Assembly (NCBI RefSeq): GCF_014197755.1
Contig: NZ_JACIGE010000006.1
Span: forward strand, 124,001 to 188,000
Direction of reading: 5' to 3'
DNA: 64,000 nt
Source: Rhodocyclus tenuis
GTDB lineage: Bacteria; Pseudomonadota; Gammaproteobacteria; Burkholderiales; Rhodocyclaceae
In this document: positions 20,260-54,001 of the stretch, piece after piece
Position numbering within the stretch: position 1 is the stretch's first letter
Layout of the letters: every line of letters starts with the position of its first letter
Program-made: the position numbers and the translations under genes
Notes under the pieces: generated by a model
The model's input: the letters and a program-made list of their open reading frames with translations, nothing else
The model's database searches: none
Told to the model about the DNA's origin: nothing

Positions 20260-20492
20260 CGGTGCACCTGGGCAGAGGCCAAACGGCGAAGCGGCGGAAA
20301 TCCGGCGAATTAATAACAGAGAGTTATAACAATCTAACTGAACAGTCTTTTTGGATCAATAGTGCACTGCTACGATGCCGCCAGTTCGGAGCTTGCCGTA
20401 AGTTTCGCCTTCCCGTCACACCTTACACTCCGGCCGTCGCCCGCACAGAAGATCGTGCCGGCAGCGACTCCGGCCGAAACGGAAAACCCACG
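20260..20492. promoter_or_regulatory. cysB/cysI divergent control region
   Basis: This 233-base interval contains an unusually AT-rich core (about 20309-20360) with the palindrome GTTATAAC at 20323-20330 and adjacent TAATAACA and AATCTAAC half-site-like words. CysB sites are long and poorly conserved, so I infer that the core binds CysB. A -10-like TACGAT lies near 20371, but no well-spaced -35 is evident. Confidence 0.45.
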
Positions 20493-22208
20493 ATGTATCG
20501 CTACGATACCAAGGACCAGCGCCTGATCGACGAGCGCGCCGCCCAGTTTGCCGACCAGATGGCGCGCCATGCCGCCGGCGAACTGTCGGCCGACGAGCTG
20601 CGCCCGCTGCGCCTGCAGAACGGCCTGTATATCCAGCGCCACGGACCGATGCTGCGCATCGCCATCCCGTACGGCTTGCTGTCGGCGGCGCAGCTGCGCA
20701 AGCTCGCCGACATCACGCGCCGCTACGATCGCGGCTACGGCCACTTCACGACGCGGCAGAACCTGCAGCTCAATTGGCCGAAATTCGAGGAGACGCCGGC
20801 GATTATCGGCGAACTGGCCGGCGTGCAGATGCACGCCATCCAGACCTCGGGCAACTGCGTGCGCAACGTCACCTCAGATCACTTTGCCGGCATCGCGCCG
20901 GACGAGATCGCCGACCCGCGCCCCTACTGCGAGATCATCCGCCAGTGGTCGACCATCCACCCGGAGTTCGCCTTCCTGCCGCGCAAGTTCAAGATTGCCG
21001 TCAACGCCGCCGGCACCGACCGGGCGCTGATCCGCGCGCACGACATCGGTCTTGAAGTGGTTCGCGGCGAAGATGGCGAGTTCGGCCTGCGCGTTTTCGT
21101 CGGCGGCGGCCTCGGGCGGACACCGATCATCGGCAAACTGCTCGTTGATTTCCTGCCGCGCCGGCACCTGCTTTCGTACCTCGACGCGGTGCTGCGCGTC
21201 TATAACCGCCACGGCCGCCGCGACAACATGTACAAGGCGCGCATCAAGATTCTCGTGCAGGCGCTGGGTGTCGACGAATTCCGCCGTCAGGTCGAAGACG
21301 AATGGGCGCTGTACCGCGACGGGCCATTGACGCTGACCGACGAGGAATTCGCGCGCGTCGCCGCCGACTTTGCGCCGCCGGCCTATGCCATGGTCAGCGA
21401 TGTCGCTGGCGAACGCGCCGCGCTCGACCGGCTCGCCGCCAGCGAACCCGGTTTCGCACGCTGGTTGTCGCGTAACGTGCATGCGCACAAGGTTGCCGGC
21501 TACGCCGCCGTCACCCTGTCGTTGAAGAAGACCGGTGTCGCCCCCGGCGACATCACGGCCGAGCAGATGGATGCCGTCGCCGATCTCGCCGAGCGTTTCA
21601 GCTTCGGCGAACTGCGCAGCAGCCACGAACAGAATCTGGTTCTCGCCGACGTGCGCCTGAGCGATCTGCCCGAAGTCTGGCGGATCAGCGCCGCCGCCGG
21701 GCTGGCGACGCCGAACATCGGCCTGCTCACCGACATCATCTGCTGCCCCGGCGGCGACCTCTGCTCGCTCGCCAACGCGCGCTCGGTGCCGGTTGCCGAG
21801 GCAGTGCAGCAGCGCTTTGCCGATGCCGACGCGCTCGACAAGCTCGGCAAGCTGTCGCTCAACATCTCCGGCTGCATGAACTCCTGCGGCCATCACCACC
21901 TTGCCGACATCGGCATCCTCGGCGTCGACAAAAACGGCGAGGAGTGGTACCAGATCACGCTCGGTGGCCGCCAGGGCAATGCGGCGACGATCGGCAGCGT
22001 CATCGGCCCGTCCTTCCGCGCCGACGAGGTGCCGGAAGTGGTCGAGGCGCTGGTCGCGGTGCACCAGGAAAACGCGGCCCCTGGTGAGCTTTTCGCCGAC
22101 AGCCTCGCGCGCATCGGTAGCACCCCCTTCCGCGAGCGCGCCTACGCCGGGCGCGGTCGCCACATCCCAGAGAAAAGGAAAGCCGCCGATGGCGCGGATC
22201 ATTCGTAA
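20493..22208 (+). CDS. cysI: Assimilatory sulfite reductase, sirohaem/[4Fe-4S] subunit (nitrite/sulfite reductase family)
   Basis: This 571-residue enzyme reduces sulfite to sulfide with six electrons. It has the duplicated ferredoxin-like/sirohaem fold: substrate-side GHFTTRQNLQLNWP near residue 85, IQTSGNCVRNVTSDHFAG near 120, and the FeS-sirohaem Cys ligands in IICCPGGDLC and NISGCMNSCGHHH. The start MYRYDTKDQR at 20493 is chosen over the frame opening at 20184, because the latter overlaps the control region and cysB. There is no flavoprotein cysJ in the window, so the electron donor is probably ferredoxin or another protein. The stop overlaps the start of the DUF934 gene by 20 bases. Confidence 0.92.
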   Translation: MYRYDTKDQRLIDERAAQFADQMARHAAGELSADELRPLRLQNGLYIQRHGPMLRIAIPYGLLSAAQLRKLADITRRYDRGYGHFTTRQNLQLNWPKFEETPAIIGELAGVQMHAIQTSGNCVRNVTSDHFAGIAPDEIADPRPYCEIIRQWSTIHPEFAFLPRKFKIAVNAAGTDRALIRAHDIGLEVVRGEDGEFGLRVFVGGGLGRTPIIGKLLVDFLPRRHLLSYLDAVLRVYNRHGRRDNMYKARIKILVQALGVDEFRRQVEDEWALYRDGPLTLTDEEFARVAADFAPPAYAMVSDVAGERAALDRLAASEPGFARWLSRNVHAHKVAGYAAVTLSLKKTGVAPGDITAEQMDAVADLAERFSFGELRSSHEQNLVLADVRLSDLPEVWRISAAAGLATPNIGLLTDIICCPGGDLCSLANARSVPVAEAVQQRFADADALDKLGKLSLNISGCMNSCGHHHLADIGILGVDKNGEEWYQITLGGRQGNAATIGSVIGPSFRADEVPEVVEALVAVHQENAAPGELFADSLARIGSTPFRERAYAGRGRHIPEKRKAADGADHS

Positions 22209-40355: not shown

Positions 40356-40464
40356 TGGGCTGCGATTTTACCGCCTGCCGCCCACCGCTGCCGGGGATTG
40401 TCGGTGACGCTGCTAAACTGAGCCCCCTATGAATGCAGCGGCGGACCACACCGCAACCGGCCGC

Positions 40465-40539
40465 GCTTGGCCTGGTCACGCTTGGCCTGGTCACGCTTGG
40501 CCTGGTCACGCTTGGCCTGGTCACGCTTCGCCGAGTCCC
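40465..40539. repeat. 15-bp tandem repeat upstream of the 40591 gene
   Basis: Four perfect copies of CTTGGCCTGGTCACG (40465-40524) are followed by a diverged copy CTTCGCCGAGTCCCG and a partial one. The unit is a multiple of three, and several frames stay open through it; in the frame of the downstream gene it would read as repeated Ala-Trp-Pro-Gly-His. It lies between divergent genes. Confidence 0.9.
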
Positions 40540-40590
40540 GCTTCGCTTGGCCGGATTTCGCCGCGCCGGATCTGTTGCCGCAGGAAAGCG

Positions 40591-41868
40591 ATGAAACGCC
40601 TGTTCATTATTCTGTTCGTCCTCGTCGGCGTCGTCTCCCCGCTGGCGCTCATCGCGGCGGCGGCTCTTGTCTGCGAAGACGCGCCGCGGGTGCAGCGCGA
40701 GATCGAATTCACTGCCGACGACATCGCGCGCGCCAGGAACATCCTCGCCTTGAACGACCCGCGGCAGTTTCAGGGCTACGGCGTGCCGGTGGACGGCTTG
40801 CATACGATCGTCCTCTCGGCCGCTGACGTCGATCTGGCGGTCAATTACGCGCTGCACCGCCTCGGGCGCGGCAGTTCGCGGCTGGCGCTGGCGCAGGGAG
40901 AGCTGACGCTCGATGCCAGCCTGCGCCTACCGCAGAACCCGTTCGGCGATTTCGTCAATGTGCACGCGCTGCTGCGCGACGCTCCCGGTTTTCCGCAAAT
41001 CGAGTCGCTGCAGCTAGGGCAGCTGCCCGTTCCGGCGGCGCTGGCGCATGTTGTCCTGGCACTGGCGCGGGAAGCGCTCGGAAACAAAGCCGAATACCGG
41101 CTGCTCGCCGACACCATCCGCAGCGTCAGCATCGCCGACGACCGTGTGTCGATCGGCTATCGCTGGGATGAGCAACTGCCCGATCGCCTGCGTGCGGCAA
41201 CGTTGCCGGCGGCCGAACGCGAACGCCTGCGCGCCTACCACGAGCGCCTAGCCTTGCTCAGCGCAGCGCCGGAGCTGACGCACAGCGTTTCGCTGTCGCG
41301 CCTGCTGGCACCGCTGCTGCGGCTCGCCCACGAGCGTTCGGCGGCGGGTGCCGATGCGCAGGCCGAGCAGCGCGCGCTGCTTGCCGTGCTAGCGTTCTAC
41401 GTCAATGGCAGGAACTGGGCGACGCTGATCCCCGAAGCGCGCAACTGGCCGCCGCTGACGCTGCATCAGGTGACGCTGCGCGGGCGCACTGACCTTGCCC
41501 AGCATTTCATCGTCTCGGCGGCAATCGCCGCTTTCGCCGGTACGCCGCTGGCTGACGCCATCGGCCTGTACAAGGAGCTCGACGACGCGCGCGGCGGCAG
41601 CGGCTTCAGTTTCGTCGACCTCGCTGCCGACCGTTCGGGGACGCTTTTCGGACAGCTGGGCAGTGGCGATCGCGTCGCCGATCTGCAGCGCCGCGGCGCC
41701 GCACTCGCCGGTGAAAGCGCGATCATTCCCGACATCGCCGGTCTGCCGGAAGACATGGCCGAAGCCGAGTTCAAGCGCCGTTTCGGTGGTGTCGGCGCGC
41801 CCCCTTACCAGGCGATGCTTGCCGAGATCGAGCGGCGCATCGCCGCCTGCACGCTCTATCGACCGTAA
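40591..41868 (+). CDS. Signal-anchored hypothetical protein, function unknown
   Basis: This 425-residue protein begins MKRLFIILFVLVGVVSPLALIAAAALVCED, a signal peptide or membrane anchor, and is probably periplasmic. After it come an acidic, Ala/Leu-rich region with FTADDIARARNILALNDPRQFQGYGVPVDG, and a C-terminal half with LHQVTLRGRTDLAQHFIVSAAIAAFAGTPLADAIGLYKELDDARGGSGFSF. The last phrase is a conserved-looking block that may be the functional core. No known domain is recognised. I chose the ATG at 40591, which follows CAGGAAAGCG, over 40429, whose frame runs through the 15-bp repeat. It converges with hydE (27-base gap) but its function has no visible link to hydrogenase. Confidence 0.6.
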   Translation: MKRLFIILFVLVGVVSPLALIAAAALVCEDAPRVQREIEFTADDIARARNILALNDPRQFQGYGVPVDGLHTIVLSAADVDLAVNYALHRLGRGSSRLALAQGELTLDASLRLPQNPFGDFVNVHALLRDAPGFPQIESLQLGQLPVPAALAHVVLALAREALGNKAEYRLLADTIRSVSIADDRVSIGYRWDEQLPDRLRAATLPAAERERLRAYHERLALLSAAPELTHSVSLSRLLAPLLRLAHERSAAGADAQAEQRALLAVLAFYVNGRNWATLIPEARNWPPLTLHQVTLRGRTDLAQHFIVSAAIAAFAGTPLADAIGLYKELDDARGGSGFSFVDLAADRSGTLFGQLGSGDRVADLQRRGAALAGESAIIPDIAGLPEDMAEAEFKRRFGGVGAPPYQAMLAEIERRIAACTLYRP

Positions 41869-41895
41869 GCGCGGCGAGCAGCCGCCGCCGGCCGG

Positions 41896-43008
41896 CTAGG
41901 CGTCGCTGTGGCGGGCGAAGTGGCGCGAGTGTGGCGAATCGCCCCAGTCGTTCCAGCCGACCTGGCGGCCAGTGCTGCTGATGCGATTGGCCAGACACGA
42001 ACGGCAATCGTCGCGCGCTTCGTCGAGACAGGGCTTGCCTTCGTACAGCTGGTAATTCTTGCGCACCTCGCGCGGCGTCAGGCTGGGCATGACGACGTTG
42101 GCGCCGAAAGTGACGCCACGCTCGCGGCCGTCGGCAACGAGCGCCTGCAGTGCCGTCGTCGCGGCGATATTGACGTCGCGCAGGACGAGGCGCGTCACCG
42201 CGATCATCTTCAGCGCCAGTTGCAGCAGCTCGTCGCTGGCCAGTGCCCCCGCCGCCGGCATGGCGTTGCCCGGTGCCGGCAGGTACGGCCCCATGCCGAT
42301 CATGTCGATGTCGCGATCGGCGAAAGCGAGGATGTCGGCGGCGAGGTCGACGAGCGTCTGTCCGGGCAGGCCGATCATGACGCCGGTGCCGACCTGGAAA
42401 CCGGCGTCGCGCAGGTCGGCGAGCGCCTGCCAGCGTGTCTCGATGCGCTGCGTCGGCGGATGGATGCGCGCGAAGAGTTCCGGGTTGCTCGTCTCGATGC
42501 GTAGCAGATAGCGGTGCGCGCCGGCCGCGCGCCAGCGGCGGAAGGTCTCGGCGCTCTGCTCGCCGAGCGAGAGCGTGATGCCGAGCCCTTGCGGCAAAGA
42601 CGCGGACTGCGAGCGTTGCCGGATCTCGTGAACGCAGTCCTCGATGAGGCTGATGAAACCTTCGTCGCGCCGTTCACCCGCCTGCAGCACGCAGGAGCCG
42701 TAGCCGGCGCGCGCAGCCCACAGAGCGGCGTCGATCACCTGCTCGCGGCTCAGCGTATAACGCTCGACCGCGCGGTTGCCCTTGCGGATGCCGCAGTAGT
42801 GGCAGTCGAGCACGCAGACGTTGGAGATTTCGACCAGTCCGCGGTAGTGCACGCGGTCGCCGACTTCGCGCGTCGTCAGCGCGAAGGCGGCGCGGCGCAG
42901 GCATTCGATGTCGGCGGCGGCCGAGAGTCCGAGCAGCGCGACGATGTCGGCGTCGGAAAACTCGCGCTGCGCGAGCAGCGCTGCCAGCGCCGGCGACGGC
43001 TGGCTCAC
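41896..43008 (-). CDS. hydE: [FeFe]-hydrogenase maturase HydE (radical SAM)
   Basis: This 370-residue radical SAM enzyme takes part in building the 2Fe subcluster of the H-cluster. The [4Fe-4S]/SAM motif is NVCVLDCHYCGIRKGN (CX3CX2C). A second Cys group near the C-terminus, PCLDEARDDCRSC, has the CX7CX2C spacing of the auxiliary cluster in several HydE proteins. HydE-like features include LQAGERRDE, RIETSNPELFARIHPP, GVMIGLPGQTLVDLAADI, and GPYLPAPGNAMP. The start is GTG at 43008, sharing GTGA with the hydF stop and preceded by AAAGGAG, so the two are translationally coupled. An 889-codon frame that covers both genes is an artefact of frame alignment. It is the last gene of the hydrogenase island. 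Confidence 0.93.
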   Translation of the reverse strand: MSQPSPALAALLAQREFSDADIVALLGLSAAADIECLRRAAFALTTREVGDRVHYRGLVEISNVCVLDCHYCGIRKGNRAVERYTLSREQVIDAALWAARAGYGSCVLQAGERRDEGFISLIEDCVHEIRQRSQSASLPQGLGITLSLGEQSAETFRRWRAAGAHRYLLRIETSNPELFARIHPPTQRIETRWQALADLRDAGFQVGTGVMIGLPGQTLVDLAADILAFADRDIDMIGMGPYLPAPGNAMPAAGALASDELLQLALKMIAVTRLVLRDVNIAATTALQALVADGRERGVTFGANVVMPSLTPREVRKNYQLYEGKPCLDEARDDCRSCLANRISSTGRQVGWNDWGDSPHSRHFARHSDA

Positions 43009-44330
43009 GCCATCTCCTTTCCCGTTAATTCCTTCCCCTTCGCTTCCCCCGTCGCTTCGCCCACCACTCGCCCGGCCCTGCCCTGCTCGCGCCGCGCCTC
43101 GACGTAGGCCGCCAGCGCCGCCGGGAAGGGCTGCAGCGCGCGCTCGAAGATGCCGAGGCTGAAAGCGATGGTCAGACCGTAGTTGGTGATCGGCACGCCG
43201 GCGGCTTTCGCCTTGAGGATGCGGTTGAGCATTTCCTTGCGGTTGAAGGTGCAGCCGCCGCAATGGACGATCAGCTTGAACGGCGACAGATCCTCGGGAT
43301 AGTCGCGGCCGGCGACGATGGTGAACTCGAGCTTGCCGCCGACGTACTGCGTCAGCCAGCGCGGAATCTTGACGCGGCCGATGTCCTCGGCGATCGGATG
43401 GTGCGCGCAGGCTTCGGCGATGAGCACGCGGTCGCCGGCCTTGAGGGTGTCGATCGCCAGCGCGCCGAGCGTCTGGCTGACCAGATCGCCCTTGAAGCGC
43501 GAGAAGAGGATCGAGAAGCTGGTCAGCGGCACTTCCGGCGGCGTGTCGGCGGCGACCTTGAGGAAGGCCTGCGAATCGGTGACGACGAGCTTCGGCGGCC
43601 GCTTCAGCTGATCGAGCGCAGTACGCAGCTCGCGTTCCTTGACCACCATGCACCAGGCGTCGTTGTCGAGCAGGTCGCGGATCGACTGCACCTGCGGCAG
43701 GATCAGCCGGCCTTTCGGCGCCTCCTTGTCGATCGGCACCACCAGCACGGCCATCTGTCCGGGCCCGACGAGGTCGGCGACGATGTCCGGGTTGCTGATG
43801 AAGTCTTCCGGCGCGTGGTCGACGATGGCGTGGCGCAGGTCGAGAATGCCGTCGCCGAGCGGGTCGTCCCGCTTCGCCGCCGCGGTGCGCACGCTCGGCA
43901 GGCGCAGTTCGGCGAGCCGCGCCAGCGTCGCTTCCGGCGGCGCGCCGAGGTCGCTCTTGTTGAGGACGACGATCACCGGCGTCTGGCGCTCGGCCAGTGC
44001 GGCGGCGATCGATTCCTCGTAAGCACCCCATTCGCCGTCGCTGACGATGATGCCAAGATCGGTGCGCTCGAACACCTCCCGCGTCTTGGCGACGCGCAGA
44101 TCGCCGACGACGCCGCTGTCGTCGATGCCGGCGGTGTCGATGAACAGCACCGGCCCGACCGGCAGCAGCTCCATCGGCTTCTCGACCGGGTCGGTGGTGG
44201 TGCCGGCGAGTGCGGAGACGATCGCCACCTGCTGCCGCGTGATCGCGTTTAGCAGGCTCGATTTGCCGACGTTGCGCCGGCCGAAGATGCCGATGTGCAA
44301 GCGCAGCGCGCGTGGGGTGTTCTGGTTCAT
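43005..44330 (-). CDS. hydF: [FeFe]-hydrogenase maturation GTPase HydF
   Basis: This 441-residue scaffold protein receives the 2Fe precursor and delivers it to the hydrogenase. The N-terminal GTPase domain has GRRNVGKSSLLNAI (G1), DTAGIDDSG (G3) and LNKSD (G4). The dimerisation domain follows, then the [4Fe-4S] domain with ACAHHP and IVHCGGC, the expected (C/H)xH...HCxxC ligand set. The start MNQNTPRALRLHIG at 44330 overlaps the aspA stop by four bases (ATGA), so the longer start at 44360 is rejected. Its stop overlaps hydE. It belongs to the coupled hydG-aspA-hydF-hydE set. Confidence 0.95.
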   Translation of the reverse strand: MNQNTPRALRLHIGIFGRRNVGKSSLLNAITRQQVAIVSALAGTTTDPVEKPMELLPVGPVLFIDTAGIDDSGVVGDLRVAKTREVFERTDLGIIVSDGEWGAYEESIAAALAERQTPVIVVLNKSDLGAPPEATLARLAELRLPSVRTAAAKRDDPLGDGILDLRHAIVDHAPEDFISNPDIVADLVGPGQMAVLVVPIDKEAPKGRLILPQVQSIRDLLDNDAWCMVVKERELRTALDQLKRPPKLVVTDSQAFLKVAADTPPEVPLTSFSILFSRFKGDLVSQTLGALAIDTLKAGDRVLIAEACAHHPIAEDIGRVKIPRWLTQYVGGKLEFTIVAGRDYPEDLSPFKLIVHCGGCTFNRKEMLNRILKAKAAGVPITNYGLTIAFSLGIFERALQPFPAALAAYVEARREQGRAGRVVGEATGEAKGKELTGKEMA

Positions 44331-45769
44331 GGCGTGATGTCGGGAGAGCCGAGGCGGCACACCGCTTCGGGCGAGATGAGCGAATCGTAGGCTTCGCCGG
44401 AAACGAGTCCTGAGGCGATGGCGACGTCGCGCAGGCTGCGTCCGCTCGCGCTGGCAGCGGCAGCAAGCTCGCCGGCAGCGGTGTAGCCGACGAGCGGCAG
44501 CAGCGCGGTGGCGCTCGCCGTCGCGCCAAGAACGCTCTGCCGGCAGCGCTCGGCATCGGCGTCAATGCCGTCGACGCACAGGCGCGCCAGCATGTCGCAG
44601 GCGCTGGCGAGCAGGTCGATGCTGCCGAGCAGGCAGTCGGCGATCAGCGGCAGGAAGGGGTTGAGTTCGAGCGATCCCATCGCCGCGGCGCTGGTAATCG
44701 CCTGATCATTGGCGCAGACCTGCAGCGCCGCCTGCGTCACCGCCTCGGGAATCACCGGATTGACCTTCCCCGGCATGATGCTCGACCCGGCCTGCCGCGC
44801 CGGCAGGCGGATCTCGCCAAAGCCGGCGTCGGGGCCCGAGCTGAGCAGGCGCAGGTCGCCGCAGATCTTGAGCAGATTGACCGCGCCGGCCTTGAGGATT
44901 CCCGAAACCTCGACGAAGGCGTCGGCGTTCTGCGTCGCCTCGACCAGATTGTCGGCGCGCGCCAGGCCAATTCCCGACAGCTCACGCAAGGTATCGACGA
45001 CACGGAAGATGTAGGCGCGCGGCGTGCCAAGGCCGGTGCCGATGGCGGTGCCGCCGAGATTGACGGTGCGCAGGCGCTCGACGCATTTGGCGACGCGCCA
45101 GCGGTCGCGCGAAATCGCTTCGGCGTAGGCGCCCATCTCGCGCCCGAGCGTGATCAGCACCGCGTCCTGCAACTGCGTACGGCCGACCTTGACCACCGGC
45201 TCGAGGCGTTTTTCCTGCGCCTGAAAGCTCTCCTGCAGGCGTACCAGCGCGTTCTCGAGGCGGCCGATCTCGCGGATCGCCGCCAGCCGCAACGCCGTTG
45301 GAAAAGTGTCGTTGGTCGACTGCCAGCGATTGACGTCGTCAAGCGGCGAAATCAGCGCGTAGTCGCCGGGCGCGGCGCCGACGAGCTGCAGCGCGCGGTT
45401 GGCGATCACTTCGTTGACGTTCATGTTCAGGCTGGTACCGGCGCCGCCCTGCAGCGCATCGACCGGAACGTGTTCATCGAGCAGGCCGGCGGCGAGTTCG
45501 TGGCAGGCGCGTTCGATCGCGTCGGCACGCTCGGAAGTCTCGCGCCAGCCGTCGAGCGCGCCGATCGTGCGCACGGCGGCGAGCTTGACCAGACCGTAGG
45601 CATGCACCAGCGGCCGACGTACCGGGCGGCCGGCGAGCGCGAAGTTCTCCAGCGCGCGCAGCGTGTGGATGCCGTAGAGGCAGTCGGCAGGAAGCAGGCG
45701 GCTGCCGAGCGCGTCGCTCTCGCGGCGCTGCCCGGCAGGCACGGCTGTCGCGTCAGCGATAGACGTCAC
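44327..45769 (-). CDS. aspA: Aspartate ammonia-lyase within the hydrogenase maturation operon
   Basis: This 480-residue protein of the aspartase/fumarase superfamily converts L-aspartate to fumarate and ammonia. The signature loop GSSIMPGKVNPVIPE favours aspartase over fumarase. Other marks are LQGGAGTSLNMNVNEVIANRAL, DVNRWQSTNDTFPTALR, KVGRTQLQDAV and GTGLGTP. The start is a GTG at 45769 after AGGG, inside the hydG 3' end (17-base overlap), and the stop overlaps hydF, so it is embedded in the maturation operon. Possible roles: local ammonium for building the H-cluster's bridging ligand, or supply of fumarate as electron sink. These are inferences. No other aspartate-metabolism gene is adjacent. 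Confidence 0.93.
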   Translation of the reverse strand: MTSIADATAVPAGQRRESDALGSRLLPADCLYGIHTLRALENFALAGRPVRRPLVHAYGLVKLAAVRTIGALDGWRETSERADAIERACHELAAGLLDEHVPVDALQGGAGTSLNMNVNEVIANRALQLVGAAPGDYALISPLDDVNRWQSTNDTFPTALRLAAIREIGRLENALVRLQESFQAQEKRLEPVVKVGRTQLQDAVLITLGREMGAYAEAISRDRWRVAKCVERLRTVNLGGTAIGTGLGTPRAYIFRVVDTLRELSGIGLARADNLVEATQNADAFVEVSGILKAGAVNLLKICGDLRLLSSGPDAGFGEIRLPARQAGSSIMPGKVNPVIPEAVTQAALQVCANDQAITSAAAMGSLELNPFLPLIADCLLGSIDLLASACDMLARLCVDGIDADAERCRQSVLGATASATALLPLVGYTAAGELAAAASASGRSLRDVAIASGLVSGEAYDSLISPEAVCRLGSPDITP

Positions 45770-47156
45770 GCTTGCCCTGCCTGACCTTGTCGACCATCAC
45801 GCGCGAGTAGCGCGCCGGCGTCGGCTCCATGCCGTCGATGAAGGCGGCGATCGCCTGCTCGCCGAGCGCGCGCGCCTCGGGCGAGGCGTAGTCGGAGAGG
45901 TATTCCTGGAAGGTCGACGCGGCGTTCGGGTCGCAGTGCTGCTTGATCTCGCCGGGGCGCGCGATGTCCATGAAGTCGGCGCCGGTGCGTCCGAGGCGGT
46001 AGCAGCCGGTGCAGAACGAGGGGATGTAGCCGAGCCGGGCGACGTCCTGCACCACCTCGTCGAGCGTGCGGTGGTCGCCGAGCGAGAACTGGCTCATGTC
46101 CTCGCGCGCCGCTTCGGCGTAACCGCCGGGGTTGGTGCGGCTGCCGCCGGAAATCTGCGAGACGCCGAGCGCGAAGGTTTCGCGGCGCATCTCGGCGTTT
46201 TCACGCGTCGACATGATGATGCCGGTGTAGGGAACGGCGATGCGCAGGATGGCGACGATCTTGCGAAAGTCCTCGTCGCTGACCGCGTGCGGCGGCAGCG
46301 TCGCGAAAGACGAACCGGTCGCCGGTTCGATGCGCGGCACGCTGATGGTGTGCGGGCCGACGCCGAAAGTCGCCTCGAGGTGGCCAATGTGCTGCATCAG
46401 CGCGAGCAGGTCGAAGCGCCAGTCGGCAAGCCCGAAGAGCACGCCGACGCCGCAGTCGTCGATGCCGGCGCTCATCGCGCGGTCGATCGCCTGCAGGCGC
46501 CACTGGTAATTGGTCTTGGCACCGCTGGTATGCACCTGGCGGTAGGTTTCGTGGTGGTAGGTTTCCTGGAAGATCTGGTAGGTGCCGATCTTCGCTTCCT
46601 TCAGGCGCGCGAATTCCTCGACCGAGAGCGGCGCGATATTGACGTTCACGCGGCGGATTTCGCCCTTGCCATGCTTGACCGAATAGACGGTGTCGATGGC
46701 GTCGAGAATGTAGTCGAGGCCGCGCGTCGGATAGGACTCGCCGGCGACGAGCAGGATGCGCTTGTGCCCCTGGTCGATCAGCATGCGCGTTTCGCGTGCG
46801 ATCTCGTCCTGGTCGAGCGCACGGCGAACGACTTCCTTGTTGCGCTTGCGGAAGGCGCAGTAACTGCACTCGTTGGCGCACAGGTTGGAGACGTAGAGCG
46901 GCGCGAAGATCACCAGCCGCTTGCCGTAGATGGCGTCCTTGACGAAACGCGCGCTGGCGAACAGTTCGTCGATGAGTTCGGGGTCACGCAGGTTCATCAG
47001 CGGCACGATCTCGTCGGCGCTGATGCCTTTCAGTTCGCGTGCTTTGGCCAGTATCTCGCGCACCTGCGCGGAGCCAGGCGCAGCACTGGCTGCGCCGGCG
47101 GCGAGGCTCGCCAGAATCGGCGTCTCGTCGATATCGAAGTTGCTGCTAGCGGTCAT
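45753..47156 (-). CDS. hydG: [FeFe]-hydrogenase maturase HydG (tyrosine lyase, radical SAM)
   Basis: This 467-residue radical SAM enzyme cleaves tyrosine to provide CO and CN- ligands of the H-cluster. The N-terminal SAM cluster motif is NLCANECSYCAFRKRN (CX3CX2C). The C-terminal auxiliary cluster ligands are FCTGCYRLGRTGADF and KQHCDPNA (CX2C...C), which set HydG apart from ThiH. Other marks: PLYVSNLC, EIARETRMLIDQGHKRILLVAGE, TYQIFQETYHHETYR and GSRTNPGGY. The start MTASSNFDIDET at 47156 is chosen over 47228 because upstream residues are Pro-rich and unlike HydG; the ribosome-binding site is weak. A 90-base gap separates it from the hydrogenase gene. Confidence 0.95.
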   Translation of the reverse strand: MTASSNFDIDETPILASLAAGAASAAPGSAQVREILAKARELKGISADEIVPLMNLRDPELIDELFASARFVKDAIYGKRLVIFAPLYVSNLCANECSYCAFRKRNKEVVRRALDQDEIARETRMLIDQGHKRILLVAGESYPTRGLDYILDAIDTVYSVKHGKGEIRRVNVNIAPLSVEEFARLKEAKIGTYQIFQETYHHETYRQVHTSGAKTNYQWRLQAIDRAMSAGIDDCGVGVLFGLADWRFDLLALMQHIGHLEATFGVGPHTISVPRIEPATGSSFATLPPHAVSDEDFRKIVAILRIAVPYTGIIMSTRENAEMRRETFALGVSQISGGSRTNPGGYAEAAREDMSQFSLGDHRTLDEVVQDVARLGYIPSFCTGCYRLGRTGADFMDIARPGEIKQHCDPNAASTFQEYLSDYASPEARALGEQAIAAFIDGMEPTPARYSRVMVDKVRQGKRDVYR

Positions 47157-47246
47157 TGGCGGCTTTTCGGGCAGGTGAACACGCTGCCGCCCCGCAACAG
47201 GCGGGATCGGCAGCGCCGGAAGCTCCAAGCGTGAGTGGCCGGGGTG

Positions 47247-49160
47247 TCAGGAGATGAACTTGCCGCGCGGAGTATACGTCGTGTGCAGCAGTTCGTGCGC
47301 CTTGTGCCCGCCCGGCCCTTCCTTCAGGAATTCCTGATAGATCCTGGCGATCTGCGGGTTCTCGTGCGACTTCCGGACCTCGTAGCTGGCGTCCTCGCCG
47401 TAGATGGCGCGCGCGCGCGCGGCGCGGATTTCCGGGCTGGTCGGAATCGGCTGGCCGCCGCCACCGAGACAGCCGCCGGGGCAGGCCATCACCTCGATGA
47501 AGTGGCAGGTGCTGAACACGCCGCCCTGCTTGATGTCGTCCATCACCTTCCTGGCGTTGGCCGTGCCGTGCGCGACGCCGACGCGCAGCGTCGCACCGCG
47601 CAACCATTCGAAGTCGTCGAACAGGTGGCGGAGGAGATCGGGGACCGGGCCGACTTCAGGGATCGGCAGTTCGATCAGGCGCACGCCTTCGATGCCGCGT
47701 ACCGGAACGATGTTGGCGTTCTCGTAGAAGTCCTCGACCTTGCGCCCGGTAACCAGCTCGATCACGGTACGCAGCGCCGCTTCCATGACGCCGCCGGTGG
47801 CGCCGAAGATGACGCCGGAACCGGTCGGCGTTTCGAAGGGATCGTCGAAATCGCTCTGCGGCAGGTGCGGCAGGTCGATGCCGGCCTCGCGCACCATCTT
47901 CGCCAGCTCGCGTGCGGTCAGCGCGAAGTCGACGTCCTTGTGGCCGCTGTCAGCCATCTCCGGGCGGTCGCATTCGAACTTCTTGGCGGTACAGGGCATC
48001 AGCGCCACCGAAACGATGTCCTTGGCGTCGATGCCGTGCTGCTCGGCGTAGTAGGTCTTGATCACCGAGCCGAACATCTGCTGCGGGCTCTTCGCCGACG
48101 AGAGCAGGCCGAGCTGGTCGGGGTAGAAGTGCTCGATGTACTTGATCCAGCCCGGCGAGCAGCTGGTCAGCTGCGGCAGCCTGACTTCGGGGTCCTGGCG
48201 CACCAGCGCACCGTGCAGCCGCTGCAGCAGCTCGGTGCCTTCCTCGATGATCGTCAGGTCGGCCGAGAAATTGGTGTCGAACACCGCGTCGAAACCGATG
48301 CGCTTGATCGCCGTGTTCATCTCGAAAGTCAGCGCGGTGCCCGGCGGCAGACCGAAGCACTCGCCGATCGCCGCACGCGGCGACGGCGCCGTCTGGATGA
48401 CGACGTGCTTCGACGGGTCGTCGAGCATCGCCCAGATTTCGTCGGTCTGGTCGGCCTCACTGAGCGCGCCGGTCGGGCAGCGGTTGATGCACTGACCACA
48501 GCTGATGCAGACGACCGACGCCAGCGGCTTGTCGCCGAAGGTGGTGATGTGCGACTTGGCACCGCGACCTTCGATCGCCAGACAGCCGACGTCCTGCAGT
48601 TCGTTGCAGGTGCGCACGCAGCGGCGACAGAGCACGCACTTGTTCATGTCGCGCACGATCGACGCGCTGGTGTGGTCAATCGCGTGGCGCGGCGCTGCCG
48701 GCTGGCCGAAGCGGAAAGCATCGACGCCGTACTCGCGCGCCAGCGACTGCAGCTCGCAGTTGCGGTTGCGCGAGCAGGTGTTGCACTCGCCGTAGTGATT
48801 GGCGAGCAGCAGGTCAATGACGTGACGACGCGCCTTGCGCACCGACGGACTGCTGGTCACCACCTTCAAGCCCGGCGTCGCCGGATAGGTGCAGGCGGCG
48901 TGCAGGCCGCGCTGACCGACGATTTCGACGACGCAGACGCGGCAGTGGCCACCGGCACGCAGGTCCGGGTGGTTGCACAGGGTCGGAATGCGCAGGCCGG
49001 CGACGCTCGCCGCCTGCAGGATGGTGCTGCCCTCGGGGACGGCAACCGGAATGTCGTCGATGGTGAGATTGATCGGGTTGGCGACGGCTGCACCGGCGGC
49101 ATGCGCAGGGTCCTGCGCCTGACGGCACAGGCTGTCGACTTGGGCGGAGCTTTTGGGCAT
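47247..49160 (-). CDS. hydA: [FeFe]-hydrogenase catalytic subunit, NAD(P)H-linked (HndD/HydA type)
   Basis: This 637-residue catalytic subunit has four accessory FeS centres and the H-domain. N-terminal [2Fe-2S]: C62, C73, C76, C90. His-ligated cluster: H122, C126, C129, C135. Two ferredoxin-like [4Fe-4S] groups: C175-C178-C181 and C218-C221-C224-C228. H-domain: L1 LTSCSPGW (332-338), L2 VALMPCTAKK with C390, and L3 EVMACPGGCLGGGGQP with C560 and C564. Note the L1 motif reads CSP, not CCP. The absence of a signal peptide implies a cytoplasmic enzyme. The diaphorase gene is 41 bases upstream. The start at 49160 has AGGAAAAG before it. H2 evolution or uptake linked to NADH is predicted. Confidence 0.95.
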   Translation of the reverse strand: MPKSSAQVDSLCRQAQDPAHAAGAAVANPINLTIDDIPVAVPEGSTILQAASVAGLRIPTLCNHPDLRAGGHCRVCVVEIVGQRGLHAACTYPATPGLKVVTSSPSVRKARRHVIDLLLANHYGECNTCSRNRNCELQSLAREYGVDAFRFGQPAAPRHAIDHTSASIVRDMNKCVLCRRCVRTCNELQDVGCLAIEGRGAKSHITTFGDKPLASVVCISCGQCINRCPTGALSEADQTDEIWAMLDDPSKHVVIQTAPSPRAAIGECFGLPPGTALTFEMNTAIKRIGFDAVFDTNFSADLTIIEEGTELLQRLHGALVRQDPEVRLPQLTSCSPGWIKYIEHFYPDQLGLLSSAKSPQQMFGSVIKTYYAEQHGIDAKDIVSVALMPCTAKKFECDRPEMADSGHKDVDFALTARELAKMVREAGIDLPHLPQSDFDDPFETPTGSGVIFGATGGVMEAALRTVIELVTGRKVEDFYENANIVPVRGIEGVRLIELPIPEVGPVPDLLRHLFDDFEWLRGATLRVGVAHGTANARKVMDDIKQGGVFSTCHFIEVMACPGGCLGGGGQPIPTSPEIRAARARAIYGEDASYEVRKSHENPQIARIYQEFLKEGPGGHKAHELLHTTYTPRGKFIS

Positions 49161-49201
49161 TTTTCTTTTCCTAGCGGGAAGCACGGCGTCTGCGTGCCGG
49201 A

Positions 49202-50902
49202 TCAGTGGCTCGCCGCAATGGGGCGCGCCATGATCTCGTCCTTGAAATGTTCGTTGACCGCCAGCAGCACCTTCGGACTCGATTGTCCGAGGCCGCACTT
49301 GGAGGCCACCTGGATCGTCTTCGACAGGCTGATCAGCTCGTTCAGATGGCGCGACGAGCAACGGCCGCCGAGCAGCGTGCGCACGCCTTCGAGCAGCTTG
49401 ACGTTGCCGTCGCGGCAGGGCGTGCATTGGCCGCAGGACTCCTCGACGAAGAACTCGAGATAGTTCTCGGCAACTTCGAGCAGGTCGCGCTGCGCGCCAT
49501 AGACGATCACCGAACCGCCCATGCCGAGATCCTCGTAGGCCAGCTTGCGGTTGAATTCGCTGGCCGGCAGCAGCGCACCGGAGTAACCGCCGACCTGCAC
49601 CGCCTTGGCATCCTCACCGCCGACCAGATCAAGCAGCTCATTCACCGTCGTTCCCCAGGGCAACTCGTACACGCCTGGCCGGCTGCAGTCGCCGGAAACG
49701 CTGAACAGTTTGAAACCCTTGGAACGCTCGGTACCGATGCTGGCAAACCACTTGGCGCCGCGGTCGAGGATGACGCTGACCGAGGCCAGCGTCTCGACGT
49801 TGTTCACCACCGTCGGCTTGCCATGAAAGCCCGAAACGACGGGATACGGCGGCCGGTTGCGCGGCTCGCCGCGGTGCCCTTCGAGCGACTCGATCAGCGC
49901 CGTTTCCTCACCGCAGACGTAGGCGCCGGCGCCCATGTGGATGCGGATGTCGAAATCGAAGCCTTCCTTGCCGAAAATCGCGCTACCCAACTGCTTCTCG
50001 GTACGCCGCCCGCGCAGGATTTCCTCGAGCAGCATCTTGATGTAGGTGTATTCGGCGCGCAGATAGACGATGCCTTCGCGCGCGCCGACCGCGTAGGCGG
50101 CGATGGTCATGCCTTCGAACAGCAGGTTGGCGTACTGCGTCAGGATGATGCGGTCCTTGAAGGTGCCGGGCTCGCCTTCGTCGGCGTTGCAGATGATGTA
50201 CTTGACGTCGCTCGCCGCCTCGGCGGCCAGCTTCCATTTGACGCCGGTCGGGAAACCGGCGCCGCCACGACCGCGGATGCCGGAGGCGATTACCTCGTTG
50301 ATCAGCTCTGATGGACTCATCGCCAGCGCCTTCTTCAAGCCGGCGTCGTCCTGGTGTTCGGTGTAGGTCAGCTCGTTGGTGAAGGTCGAACCGACGCGGC
50401 TGGTCGCCGGGCGGCGCGAACGCAGGCCCTCGCGACATTCCTCGAGGATCAGGTGCACGCGCTGCGGCGTCAGGCTCGAGTAGATCTCGTTGTTCACCAG
50501 CATTGCCGGCGCGTGGTAGTTCATGCCGATGCAGCTGGTCCAGCCGAGCGTGAACATGCCGTCGGGCGTCGTTTCGCCGAACTTGATGCCGAGATCGTTC
50601 TCCAGCTGCCGGGCAATGACCTTGGCGCCCTTCATGATCGACGACATGTCGCGGCTCAGCCGGATGATGAACTTGCCCTTCGGCTTGGTATTGAAGAAGT
50701 GATAGAAGGTGGCGACGCTATAGACCTGCGCCGCGTGCACGCCGAGCAGGTCGCCGACGTACTGCATGGCGAATTCCGAGACGTAGCTGTATTCGTCCTG
50801 GATCGCGCGGAGAATCGGGATCAGCGCCGAGCGCTGGTTGTCATGCTTTTTTGCCAAGCGGGAGACGAACTCCCGGACCTTTTCCTGTTCGGTCAACAAC
50901 AT
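49202..50902 (-). CDS. HoxF-like diaphorase subunit: NuoE-like domain fused to NuoF
   Basis: This 566-residue NADH-oxidising subunit pairs with the [FeFe]-hydrogenase. Residues 1-160 resemble NuoE (thioredoxin-like fold), but the [2Fe-2S] ligand set is degenerate: S83 and S88 stand where two Cys are expected, C124 remains and N128 replaces the fourth. Residues about 175-566 are NuoF: FMN/NADH-binding SGIRGRGGAGFPTG (208-220), CNADEGEPGTFKD, GAGAYVCGEETALIESLEG, and the [4Fe-4S] ligands ESCGQCTPCRDG near 488-494 plus a Cys near the C-terminus (ASKCGLGQ). There is no HndC-like ferredoxin extension. The same fusion occurs in HoxF of NAD-reducing [NiFe]-hydrogenases. It is the first gene of the island, start ATG at 50902. 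Confidence 0.9.
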   Translation of the reverse strand: MLLTEQEKVREFVSRLAKKHDNQRSALIPILRAIQDEYSYVSEFAMQYVGDLLGVHAAQVYSVATFYHFFNTKPKGKFIIRLSRDMSSIMKGAKVIARQLENDLGIKFGETTPDGMFTLGWTSCIGMNYHAPAMLVNNEIYSSLTPQRVHLILEECREGLRSRRPATSRVGSTFTNELTYTEHQDDAGLKKALAMSPSELINEVIASGIRGRGGAGFPTGVKWKLAAEAASDVKYIICNADEGEPGTFKDRIILTQYANLLFEGMTIAAYAVGAREGIVYLRAEYTYIKMLLEEILRGRRTEKQLGSAIFGKEGFDFDIRIHMGAGAYVCGEETALIESLEGHRGEPRNRPPYPVVSGFHGKPTVVNNVETLASVSVILDRGAKWFASIGTERSKGFKLFSVSGDCSRPGVYELPWGTTVNELLDLVGGEDAKAVQVGGYSGALLPASEFNRKLAYEDLGMGGSVIVYGAQRDLLEVAENYLEFFVEESCGQCTPCRDGNVKLLEGVRTLLGGRCSSRHLNELISLSKTIQVASKCGLGQSSPKVLLAVNEHFKDEIMARPIAASH

Positions 50903-51424
50903 GCGTGTTTGCCCTCATCGCGCCCGTTGCTGCACGCCTGATTCTTCTTCTTGAACGCGTGCGCACGAGCTTTGTGAATGCTGCAAAGGAGACGACTTTC
51001 CGGCGAAAGTGCCTGCAAGATGGCACTGGCGCTGCGTGCGAAGAGCAAAAACCATACCGCGAACGTGGTAATGGCATGGTCCTGACCAGGAGGGCACTGC
51101 CAGATCCGGCAACGGCCTTTCCCGGCGATGGAAAACAGCGCTGCTTTTGCCGCTGCCGATGACGCATCAAGAGTAATGGCGGGAAAGCCGGCGAAGCGCT
51201 GCGCGCCGGTGGCCAATGCCCGGGCATGGCCGGTGGAGCGGCGGATGGCCTGCTCCTGGCGCCCGGGCAAGATGACATGCGACATTCAATCGACAACAAA
51301 GCCGACAGAAGCCGTGGAATTTGTCGTGAAAGCGACAGCGGTACTGCGCGGCGCCCGCCTGGCGCCGCGCAGTACCGCCAGCGACGAAAGAAACGCCGGC
51401 CGGCGGCCGCCGCGCCGCCTTCGC
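50903..51424. other. 522-base interval upstream of the hydrogenase island
   Basis: No convincing gene is visible here. It must hold the promoter of the hydrogenase operon (minus strand), yet I find no near-consensus sigma-70 pair, FNR-type TTGAT-N4-ATCAA site or sigma-54 site on the correct strand. Its main structure is an 18-bp perfect hairpin (51338-51378) close to the end of the ABC permease gene. Confidence 0.5.
51338..51378. other. 18-bp perfect inverted repeat after the ABC permease gene
   Basis: Left arm GCGGTACTGCGCGGCGCC (51338-51355) and its exact reverse complement (51361-51378) flank the loop CGCCT. On the minus strand it lies 46 bases beyond the permease stop. No T-run follows, so standard intrinsic termination is not supported. 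It is the longest perfect hairpin I found in the window. Confidence 0.8.
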
Positions 51425-54001
51425 TCAGACGCCAGCGCGCAGCGCCAGCATCGGCGGTGTGCGCAGCAGGCGCGACGCGGCCAGCCAGCCGGCGGCGCTG
51501 ACCAGCAGCGCGCCGCCAGCGGTCGCCAGCAGCGGCAGCCAGGGATCGAGCGGCAGCGCAACGCGGAACACCTTGTCGGCGAGCACCTGACCGATGGCCA
51601 TCGCGCCGGCGCTGGCGATCAGCCCGGCGAGACCGCCGATCGCCGCGTATTCGCCGAGCAGCGCCGCGGACAGCTGCGCCCGGCGCGCGCCGAGCGCACG
51701 CAACAGCGCCAGTTCGTAGCGCCGCTCGTCGATTGCCGAGACCAGCGCCGCCCAGAGCACGACCAGCCCGGCGGCGAGCGTGAACAGGAAGACGAACTCG
51801 ATGGCGCCGGCGACCAGATCGAGGATCGACTGCAGCTGGCGCAGAATCGCGCCGACGTCAATCACCGTCAGGTTGGGAAACTCGCCGACCAGCCGGTTGA
51901 CGAAAGCCGCGTCGCCCGGCGGCAGGTAGAAAGCGGTGATCCAGCTCGCCGGGTACGGCTCGAGTACGCCCGAAGGCGCCAGCACGAAGAAATTGACGCG
52001 CATCGAATCCCAGTCGAGCTTGCGCAGCGCGATCACTTCGACGCTCAGCGCCTCGCCGGCGACGTCGAAAACGAGCTTGTCGCCGAGCGCCAGGCCGAGC
52101 GTCTTGGCCAACCCGGCCTCGACCGAGACGACGCCACGGCCGCGATCGGCATCGGCAAACCAGCGGCCGGCAGCAAGCGTGTTGCCGGCCGGCGGCGCAT
52201 CGCGCCAGGAAAGATTGAACTCGCGGTCGATCAGCCGGCGCGCCTGCTCGTCGACAAAGCTGTCGGCGCTGACCGCACGCTCGTTGATCTGCGTCAGGCG
52301 GCCACGCACCATCGGCGCAAGCTCGGGCCGGTAACCTGCGGCAGCGAAGAAATCGCGTACCGGCGCCAGCTGTTCCGGCTGGATGTTGATGACGAAGCGG
52401 TTGGGCGCGTCGGGCGGTGCCGAGCCGCGCCAGGCAGCGATCAGGTCGCCGCGGATGGCGGTAAGCAACAGGAGCGCCATCAGGCCGATCGCCAGCGCGC
52501 TGATCTGCACGACGCTGCCGGCGGCACGACGCTCCAGACCAGCGACACCATGCCGCCAGCCGTGGTTGTTGCCGGCGCGCGCCGGCCAGCGCCGCACCAG
52601 CGCGGCGGCCGCGCGTACCGCCAGACGCGCGACCAGTGCAAAGGCGGCGAGCGCGACGGCAAAGCCACCGACCACCCACAGGCCGAGACGCAGGTCGCCG
52701 GCGATCCACAGCATCAGCCCGGCCAGCGCCGCCGCGCCAACGACGAAGCCGCCGATCTGGCCGGCGCCCGGCGGGCCGAGTTCGCGGCGTAACACGCGCA
52801 GCGTCGGCACCTGCCGCAGCTGCAGCAGCGGCGGCGCGGCAAAGGCGAAGAGCAGCACCAGCCCGACGGCGAAACCCTGCGCAGCCGGTCGCCAGCCCGG
52901 TTGCGGCAAGGGCGTCGTCACCAGCTGCGCGATGACGCCGTGCAGCACGAAATGCGCGGCGTAACCGAGCGCGCAGCCAGCCGCCGAGGCCGCCAGACCG
53001 AGCAGCAGGAACTGGCCGCCGTAGAGGCGCAGCAGCGCGCCCTGCGTCGCGCCGAGGCAGCGCATCACCGCGCAGGCATCGAGATGGCGCTGCACGAAGC
53101 GGCGCGCGGCAAGCGCGACGGCAACGGCGGCGACGATGGCGGTGAGCAGCGCGGCGAGGCCGAGGAAGCTGCCGGCGCGGTCGAGCGCCGCGCGGATTTC
53201 CGGGCGCGCGCCCTGCGTGTCCTCGAAACGCTGGCCGCGTTCGAGCAGCGGCGCCACCGTCGCGCGGAAGCCTGCGAGCGCCGCCTCGTCGCCGGCGAGC
53301 AGCAGGCGCCAGCCGATGCGCGCGCCGGGCTGGACGAGGCCGGTGGCGTCGAGGTCGGCGAGGTTCATCAGCAGGCGCGGCGCCACCGAGAAGAAGCTGA
53401 CGCCGCGATCAGGTTCCTGCGTCAGGATGGCGCCGACGACGAGCGTGCTGCGGCCGACGGCGATGCGTTCGCCGGGGGCGGCGGCGAGCGCCACCGCCAG
53501 CCGTTCGTCGAGCCAGACGCTGCCTGGCGGCGGCCCGCCGACGACCGGCGCGTCGGGCGCATTGAGCGCCGGCGCGGTACGCAGGCTGCCGCGCAAGGGA
53601 TAGCCGACGCTCACCGCCTTGATGTCGGCCAGACTCGAATGCGCTTCGCCAGCGGCGCGCGTGACCATGCTCGGAAAGACCAGCGTCTGCGCGCTGCGCA
53701 GGCCGTCGCGCTCACTGGCGGCGACGATGTCGGCCGCCGGCGGATGATCGGAAACCAGCAGCAGATCGGCGGCGAGCAGCTGCCGCGCCTCACCTTCGAG
53801 CGCCAGACGCACGCGGTCGGCAGAGAAACCGACCGCCGACAGCGCGGCGACGGCGATGGCCAGCGCCAGTGCCAGCAAGCGCAGCTCGCCGCCGCGCGCG
53901 TCGCGCCACACCATGCGCCAGGCCAGGCGCAGCGAGTTCGCCGCTGCCGGCGAGCGCCCTGCCGAAGCTGCCGCCGCGCTCACCACCGCGTTGCCCCACA
54001 T
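51425..54001 (-). CDS. ABC transporter permease of the YbbP/FtsX (MacB-like) type
   Basis: This large (about 858 residues from the ATG at 54001) inner-membrane protein has two FtsX-type halves. An N-terminal helix LRLLALALAIAVAALSAVGF is followed by a periplasmic domain, then helix clusters near the middle (AALLTAIVAAVAVALAARRF; QFLLLGLAASAAGCALGYAAHF). A second periplasmic domain ends with three helices at the C-terminus. This is the layout of YbbP, whose ATPase YbbA is normally encoded just upstream; here none is adjacent. Starts at TTG 54037, ATG 54001 and GTG 53983 are all possible. The GTG overlaps the stop of a 12-codon open frame (54018-53980) that has the better Shine-Dalgarno (GGGAG). 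Substrate unknown; envelope lipid or lipoprotein handling is plausible. Confidence 0.8.
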   Translation of the reverse strand: MWGNAVVSAAAASAGRSPAAANSLRLAWRMVWRDARGGELRLLALALAIAVAALSAVGFSADRVRLALEGEARQLLAADLLLVSDHPPAADIVAASERDGLRSAQTLVFPSMVTRAAGEAHSSLADIKAVSVGYPLRGSLRTAPALNAPDAPVVGGPPPGSVWLDERLAVALAAAPGERIAVGRSTLVVGAILTQEPDRGVSFFSVAPRLLMNLADLDATGLVQPGARIGWRLLLAGDEAALAGFRATVAPLLERGQRFEDTQGARPEIRAALDRAGSFLGLAALLTAIVAAVAVALAARRFVQRHLDACAVMRCLGATQGALLRLYGGQFLLLGLAASAAGCALGYAAHFVLHGVIAQLVTTPLPQPGWRPAAQGFAVGLVLLFAFAAPPLLQLRQVPTLRVLRRELGPPGAGQIGGFVVGAAALAGLMLWIAGDLRLGLWVVGGFAVALAAFALVARLAVRAAAALVRRWPARAGNNHGWRHGVAGLERRAAGSVVQISALAIGLMALLLLTAIRGDLIAAWRGSAPPDAPNRFVINIQPEQLAPVRDFFAAAGYRPELAPMVRGRLTQINERAVSADSFVDEQARRLIDREFNLSWRDAPPAGNTLAAGRWFADADRGRGVVSVEAGLAKTLGLALGDKLVFDVAGEALSVEVIALRKLDWDSMRVNFFVLAPSGVLEPYPASWITAFYLPPGDAAFVNRLVGEFPNLTVIDVGAILRQLQSILDLVAGAIEFVFLFTLAAGLVVLWAALVSAIDERRYELALLRALGARRAQLSAALLGEYAAIGGLAGLIASAGAMAIGQVLADKVFRVALPLDPWLPLLATAGGALLVSAAGWLAASRLLRTPPMLALRAGV

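Follow-up and report, generated by a model that had tools for sequence, protein, structure and literature searches.

The window analysed here, a 64,000-nucleotide stretch of the Rhodocyclus tenuis genome (contig NZ_JACIGE010000006.1, positions 124,001 to 188,000), harbors an island of hydrogenase (hyd) genes at positions 41896-50902 of the minus strand. Judging from their sequences, the six co-directional genes of this island very likely specify an [FeFe]-hydrogenase of two subunits that is NADH-linked and non-bifurcating, together with the machinery for assembling its cofactor. The enzyme type is known; the novelty resides in the details of the variant, such as a HoxF-like beta subunit that has lost three of the four cluster ligands of NuoE. 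The genes encode a diaphorase (the beta subunit), the catalytic subunit HydA, the maturases HydG, HydF, and HydE, and the aspartate ammonia-lyase AspA, all of them where a first-pass annotation of this DNA had placed them (ORF coordinates were checked; the starts given are the likely ones). The HydG-AspA-HydF-HydE series overlaps by 17, 4, and 4 nt, in agreement with that annotation. Five of the six proteins pass NCBIfam cut-offs; the diaphorase passes none, yet its NuoE and NuoF domains pass those of Pfam.

The diaphorase and the catalytic subunit

The diaphorase gene (49205..50902, minus strand; 566 aa) is a single ORF in which an N-terminal NuoE-like domain of thioredoxin fold (Pfam 2Fe-2S_thioredx, 15-156) is fused to NuoF, which consists of the FMN/NADH site (Complex1_51K, 206-376) and one [4Fe-4S] domain (NADH_4Fe-4S, 476-559). 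The protein stops after the latter, and the C-terminal 2x[4Fe-4S] domain is absent by Pfam. At three of the four [2Fe-2S] ligand positions of the NuoE domain the residue is not cysteine: RLSRDMSS stands at the site of, for example, RLCRTISC in relatives, and CIGMN at the site of CLGMC. Ligand loss is confined to 3 of the 13 aligned rows, namely the window protein and 2 of its 12 compared relatives, from a genome of the same family (G136) and from Magnetospirillum fulvum. All four cysteines are kept in the other 10 rows; these include the fused proteins L060 and L109 and, from the nearest loci of Hydrogenedentota, Myxococcales, and Acidobacteria, NuoE as a separate subunit.

The description of the diaphorase as HoxF-like holds at the level of first matches, and its precise make-up is a NuoE-NuoF fusion. 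HoxF is the first phmmer match, and HoxF chains 5xfa and 5xf9 (the organism of 5xf9 being presumably Hydrogenophilus) are the top Foldseek matches of an AlphaFold model with a mean pLDDT of 78.5 and a pTM of 0.66, in a match whose domain placement is loose (rmsd 12 Å). The NAD-linked HoxF of R. eutropha is likewise an Nqo1-Nqo2 fusion without the N1a cluster (PMC3189943). Unlike HoxF, the window protein is paired with an [FeFe] catalytic subunit. [FeFe] beta subunits also make up its seven closest relatives in NuoF (61-73% identity), and the resemblance to HoxF is therefore probably convergent, as judged from identities and with no HoxF rows in the tree. By analogy with HoxF, the NuoE domain of the window protein probably has a structural role only.

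HydA (47250..49160, minus strand; 637 aa) displays the M3 layout, with a [2Fe-2S] domain, a NuoG-type [4Fe-4S] domain, two further [4Fe-4S] clusters, the H-domain, and a small-subunit (SSU) domain (Pfam Fer2_4, NADH-G_4Fe-4S_3, Fe_hyd_lg_C, and Fe_hyd_SSU). It passes the NCBIfam model for "NADH-dependent, group A6" enzymes (NF040763; 785 bits against a cut-off of 765) and TIGR02512 (472 against 406). All of the L1-L3 motifs had been reported for this protein; L2 (MPCTAKKFE) and L3 (EVMACPGGCLGGGGQP) are indeed canonical, but L1, though present, reads TSCSPGW, a variant of the canonical TSCCPxW. The variant is found in 18 of the 42 other HydA rows of the alignment, among them all 11 other rows of the 12-row clade to which the window HydA belongs. 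It is also present in A. woodii HydA1, whose structure is solved, and was noted earlier in a paper on Melainabacteria (PMC3787301). A sensory or inactive HydA was considered as a candidate and rejected, as the motifs and maturases are intact.

Predicted electron transfer to NAD(H)

The closest known architecture is that of S. aciditrophicus HydAB, an enzyme proven to be NADH-dependent, ferredoxin-independent, and non-bifurcating (Losey 2020, PMC7311640), and this supports the NADH-linked function proposed at first pass for the window enzyme. Both enzymes consist of two subunits, with NuoE fused to the N-terminus of NuoF; S. aciditrophicus HydAB is predicted to contain two [2Fe-2S] clusters (PMC7311640), whereas the window beta subunit lacks three of the four NuoE ligands. 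The comparison is based on the published description and criteria rather than on sequence alignment. In the recombinant S. aciditrophicus enzyme, H2-driven NAD+ reduction proceeds without ferredoxin at 4.8 U/mg and changes little when ferredoxin is present (3.8 U/mg), NADP+ is unused, and H2 formation from NADH is slow at 0.03 U/mg (PMC7311640).

The criteria of Losey for non-bifurcating enzymes are T/S and K/S/A at T. maritima HydB positions 232 and 234, a Tyr at 367, the absence of GGPSG, and fewer Fe-S domains. The window beta subunit has T247 and K249 at the first two positions, where bifurcating enzymes have A/E and M, together with the Tyr of a PPYP motif, GGYSG, and no extra Fe-S domain. 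According to Schut et al. (PMC9304861), all bifurcating Bfu enzymes share a cluster set of five in subunit B plus one in subunit C, and non-bifurcating homologues are without B2-B5. The Bfu cluster set (B2-B5 of BfuB and C1 of BfuC) is missing from the window enzyme, in which there is no C-terminal dicluster and three of the four NuoE ligands are gone. In cyanobacterial Hox enzymes, reactivity with ferredoxin has been linked to the [2Fe-2S] subunit HoxE (PMC11647496). Because the ligands of the NuoE cluster are lost, the window enzyme should not react with ferredoxin; taken with the HoxE link, this loss predicts a purely NAD(H)-linked enzyme.

Several points weigh against this assignment. The Losey positions were located by alignment with bifurcating B subunits such as A. 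woodii HydB, T. maritima HydB itself not being among them, and the F/Y criterion does not discriminate, Tyr being present in 4 of the 12 rows of the window clade and in 4 of the 11 bifurcating-like rows. The ranking of folds also discriminates weakly, because bifurcating HydB/NfnB chains score nearly as high as HoxF. The second cysteine of the canonical TSCCP is a ligand of the H-cluster cubane, and its replacement in TSCSPGW would make the ligation of the H-cluster unusual, although A. woodii HydA1 has the same letters. The loss of the NuoE cluster would need compensation, because mutations of the N1a ligands destabilise complex I (PMC3898324). A ferredoxin-linked hydrogenase would, in addition, be physiologically possible because the genome encodes a NifJ-like enzyme.

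An electron-bifurcating enzyme of the HydABC/Bfu type, requiring ferredoxin as well as NADH, is nevertheless highly improbable. Its subunits are homologous to those of the island, and the best PDB matches include HydB of T. maritima, A. woodii, and T. kivui and HydA1 of A. woodii, but the C-terminal dicluster domain and the NuoE ligands that such an enzyme would have are absent or lost. The window beta subunit carries GTFKDR and GGYSG in place of GAFMDR and GGPSG, and the NuoF tree places it among 12 GTFKDR rows, apart from 11 GAFM rows, with a support of 100/100. That the enzyme is mainly an H2-uptake enzyme making NADH, a functional stand-in for HoxFUYH and not an H2 producer, is the less favored reading but retains an appreciable probability, as the S. 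aciditrophicus homologue is far faster toward NAD+ reduction (4.8 vs 0.03 U/mg) and the beta subunit is HoxF-like. On the other hand, [FeFe] enzymes are usually biased to H2 production, and the genome already has a [NiFe]-hydrogenase of apparent uptake type.

For the favored non-bifurcating, NADH-linked enzyme, the activity, direction, and ferredoxin blindness of HydAB are predictions from sequence. NADH, or H2 in the reverse reaction, would exchange electrons through the FMN and the single [4Fe-4S] cluster of the fused beta subunit, and the electrons would reach the H-cluster by way of the four accessory clusters in HydA. The enzyme would most likely act as a reversible NADH/H2 valve under anoxia, with H2 made only at low H2 pressure.

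Maturation and the second hydrogenase

The three maturases are assigned by family models. HydG (45756..47156, minus strand; 467 aa), a radical SAM maturase and tyrosine lyase, reaches 535 bits for TIGR03955 (cut-off 312), and its Cys 93, 97, and 100 and Cys 382, 385, and 408 are invariant in six aligned sequences. HydF (43008..44330, minus strand; 441 aa), the GTPase scaffold, scores 538 bits for TIGR03918 (cut-off 326) and contains the Pfam domains HydF_dimer and HydF_tetramer. HydE (41899..43008, minus strand; 370 aa), a radical SAM maturase of proteobacterial grouping, scores 297 bits for TIGR03956 (cut-off 255). AspA (44330..45769, minus strand; 480 aa) belongs to the aspartase subfamily NF008909 (586 bits against 510) but remains below the cut-off of the aspA equivalog TIGR00839 (462 against 681). 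The name aspartate ammonia-lyase given at first pass thus stands for the subfamily, the level at which the substrate is assigned, and not for the strict equivalog.

HydE, HydF, and HydG had been regarded as sufficient for maturation, a view at odds with defined in vitro maturation, in which glycine-cleavage proteins and ammonium take part as well and the H-cluster can receive its bridgehead nitrogen through ammonia-lyases (PMC11736057). The aspA gene is frequently near hydF in hyd operons (PMC11736057), and the window operon resembles these in that the ammonia-lyase gene adjoins hydF among the maturase genes; it differs in that the four genes are of mosaic ancestry. Most probably AspA belongs functionally to the operon, since defined maturation uses ammonium, which AspA can supply. 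In the proposed pathway, HydG would make Fe(CO)2(CN) units, HydE would convert them, and HydF would carry the diiron cluster. AspA would free ammonium from aspartate for the bridging dithiomethylamine ligand, aided by the glycine-cleavage proteins of the cell, whose H-protein is encoded in the genome.

Outside the window, beyond what the first-pass annotation could see, the genome also encodes a second [FeFe]-hydrogenase and a [NiFe]-hydrogenase. The second HydA is encoded at L003:8824-10662 (G000:C1) and is preceded by a gene (L003:6695-8824) for a protein that combines a GltD-like NAD(P)H flavoprotein part with a NuoF-type [4Fe-4S] domain. This HydA forms a clade with those of Propionivibrio, Uliginosibacterium, Paludibacterium, and same-order genomes (support 100); in the named genomes among these, the flavoprotein-HydA2 pair adjoins its own HydG-AspA-HydF. 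No maturases were seen beside the second hydrogenase of the window genome in a 20 kb stretch, and the genome has two HydA and one HydF, the HydF_dimer match being unique to the island gene. The second HydA would consequently have to use the maturases of the island, and the same HydEFG is predicted to mature both enzymes (the genome-wide maturase search covered HydF). A clean empty site for the second hydrogenase was not found, as the congener stretches match the IcmF side and not the hydA2/chemotaxis-gene side.

Other redox genes of the same genome, named by eye, include the [NiFe]-hydrogenase genes of apparent uptake type (L144, G000:C11; named from family matches) and a NifJ-like pyruvate:ferredoxin oxidoreductase of 1648 aa that is extended at its C-terminus (L143, G000:C2). 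The G136 genome also has a second, distant [FeFe]-hydrogenase (L034).

Ancestry and distribution of the operon

The genes of the operon differ in their relatives. For HydG, the best 80 of at least 579 relatives were kept together with further genome loci, and the trees comprise up to 86 locus rows; besides those of the window, 86 rows entered for HydG, 72 for HydF, 60 for HydE, 51 for AspA, 41 for HydA, 22 for NuoF, and 12 for NuoE. Matches below 60% of the query length or below 100 bits and the short duplicates L039-L042 were excluded, and L127-L129 (class matches) and the split HydF of G052 stand outside the trees. The trees of HydG, HydF, AspA, HydA, and HydE come from quick searches with no bootstrap, and long branches occur in several of them.

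The window, G136, and M. fulvum are united in the trees of HydA (100), NuoF (100/99), and HydE (only 86, inside a seven-row set with 99). HydG, HydF, and AspA unite only the window and G136, with a support of 99 each; this pair falls among lineages that include Planctomycetota and Krumholzibacteria, where inner nodes are weakly supported, and the M. fulvum proteins group with other Proteobacteria and Desulfovibrio relatives. The approximately unbiased (AU) test rejects a single trio clade for both HydF (p 0.00012) and AspA (p 0.0005) but not for HydG (p 0.066), and the placement of the HydE of the window and G136 in the Planctomycetota-like set is rejected as well (p 2e-77); the groups were picked after the similarity table was viewed, so that the p values are not strictly a priori. 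The operon reads as a mosaic, in which HydA, the diaphorase, and HydE go with M. fulvum and G136, and HydF, AspA, and more weakly HydG are Planctomycetota-like. Because the trio clade is not rejected for HydG, this claim rests on HydF and AspA. A single transferred block is not what these phylogenies describe.

M. fulvum DSM 13234 (L114) and G136 (L035) share with the window the fused beta subunit with its lost ligands and an A6-like HydA. The gene order of M. fulvum is different and its HydF and AspA are of other lineages, whereas G136 has the same order of six genes as the window, but with a GAF histidine kinase between hydA and hydG. A kinase gene is found at this place in L035 (10399-11688), L047 (7268-8617), L050 (3699-4994), and L056 (8596-9912), with 42-50% identity between loci and with GAF-HisKA-HATPase domains by Pfam in L035 and L047; it is possibly a redox or H2 sensor. 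The gap in the window is only 90 nt and harbors no kinase, and hydA also directly precedes hydG in L043, L048, and L060. A kinase common to all relatives is rejected on account of these three loci, which also make its loss from the window lineage a matter of inference. A possible history starts from an A6 cassette hydA-(kinase)-hydG-aspA-hydF-hydE plus diaphorase; a proteobacterial copy would have replaced hydE, and the window lineage would have lost the kinase, in either order.

The view of the first-pass annotation that [FeFe]-hydrogenases are uncommon in Betaproteobacteria is borne out among the relatives of this genome. Counted with the window genome, the [FeFe]-hydrogenase domain is present in 5 of 150 family genomes and HydF in 1 of 3 genus genomes, 12 of 399 order genomes (8 of these 12 in one other family), and 4 of 369 class genomes; neither of the two other genomes of the genus has the [FeFe] domain. 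The island lies within an 11 kb accessory segment (40381..51424), between the ygiQ and ybbP alignments, that is absent at this place in the two congeners compared and that contains an orphan gene and the hyd genes. In congener G059, where ygiQ and ybbP are neighbors, only 43 nt separate the two alignments, against about 1.9 kb in G109; the island thus came or went within the genus. The unrelated genes that G109 holds there make the site look insertion-prone; by eye and without model search, they are a cytochrome c peroxidase-like gene and a MazE/MazF-like pair (L125).

The absence of a composition break reported earlier is borne out by a GC of 0.667 in the island against 0.665 in the window outside 40381-51425, and by codon-usage correlations of 0.91-0.945 between the island genes and ten window genes, each of which correlates with the other nine at 0.86-0.945. 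Inspection of the genes within and next to the segment showed no mobile-element gene, and its two junction regions (270 and 250 nt) share no exact direct repeats of 9-20 nt. A tblastn search with HydA over 72,556 plasmid records (E limit 1e-50) returned 15 records, all below 60% identity and none from a betaproteobacterium by name; a plasmid origin is unsupported. The earlier view that any transfer was not recent or not element-borne is upheld only in part: no element was seen, but the island came or went within the genus.

Taken together, the operon is rare and was probably acquired. An ordinary, vertically inherited betaproteobacterial hydrogenase operon is very unlikely: operons with the order HydA-HydG-AspA-HydF do exist in Paludibacterium and in the Rhodocyclaceae Uliginosibacterium and Propionivibrio, but they carry another hydrogenase type, a GltD-like flavoprotein with a HydA2 that groups with the second HydA of the window genome. 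The HydA, HydG, HydF, and AspA of the window fall outside the groups of these operons. Neither HydA nor HydF is present in the other two genus members compared, one of which has an empty site. That the island was already present in the ancestor of the genus and disappeared on two occasions, rather than being acquired a single time in the window lineage, is easier to defend, although it is still an unlikely course of events. The host-like GC and codon usage and the lack of an element at the edges agree with it, and the trees cannot separate gain from loss. It is opposed by the few family genomes (5 of 150) with the [FeFe] domain, by the fact that G136, the sole same-family relative found with the same operon, belongs to another genus, and by the unrelated genes at the site in the second congener, as expected if the site is insertion-prone.

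A broader proposal, tentative and falling just short of an even chance, is that a proteobacterial [FeFe] branch independently evolved the HoxF design, with NuoE and NuoF fused and the [2Fe-2S] cluster discarded. The enzyme would be strictly wired to NAD(H), blind to ferredoxin, and encoded on a movable operon that combines two or more ancestries; the one HydEFG set of this operon would also serve a second [FeFe]-hydrogenase, linked to an NAD(P)H flavoprotein, elsewhere in the genome. The role of the NuoE/HydC [2Fe-2S] cluster in NADH chemistry, ferredoxin contact, or bifurcation is still debated, and three natural [FeFe] beta subunits with lost ligands, set against relatives that are 61-66% identical in NuoF and keep the ligands, render the question testable. 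One maturase set serving two differently wired HydAs would provide a natural test of maturase generality, and NADH-H2 exchange would be an unexpected fermentative option for the group of this organism. No publication on this operon was recognised among the matches listed for [FeFe]-hydrogenases in Rhodocyclaceae, Propionivibrio, Accumulibacter, Uliginosibacterium, Magnetospirillum, or Betaproteobacteria, with subscription journals mostly outside coverage.

Outside the hyd genes, the accessory segment contains an orphan 479-aa ORF (40429-41868) with tandem AWPGH repeats near its start and no match in Pfam (E 0.001) or NCBIfam (E 1e-10). Elsewhere in the window, positions 20184-22208 encode a nitrite/sulfite reductase-like protein of 674 aa whose scores stay below every NCBIfam cut-off. 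The only Rfam match at gathering thresholds is one tRNA outside the island. The leader between ybbP and the first hyd gene (50903..51424, minus strand) was included in promoter and palindrome scans, in which no consensus sigma-70 promoter was found in 41700-51500 (0.8 expected) and no exact FNR-type palindrome (TTGA-N6-TCAA) in the window (0.33 expected). Just downstream of ybbP, at about 51338-51377, a long inverted repeat spotted by eye is possibly a terminator that separates ybbP from the hyd genes.

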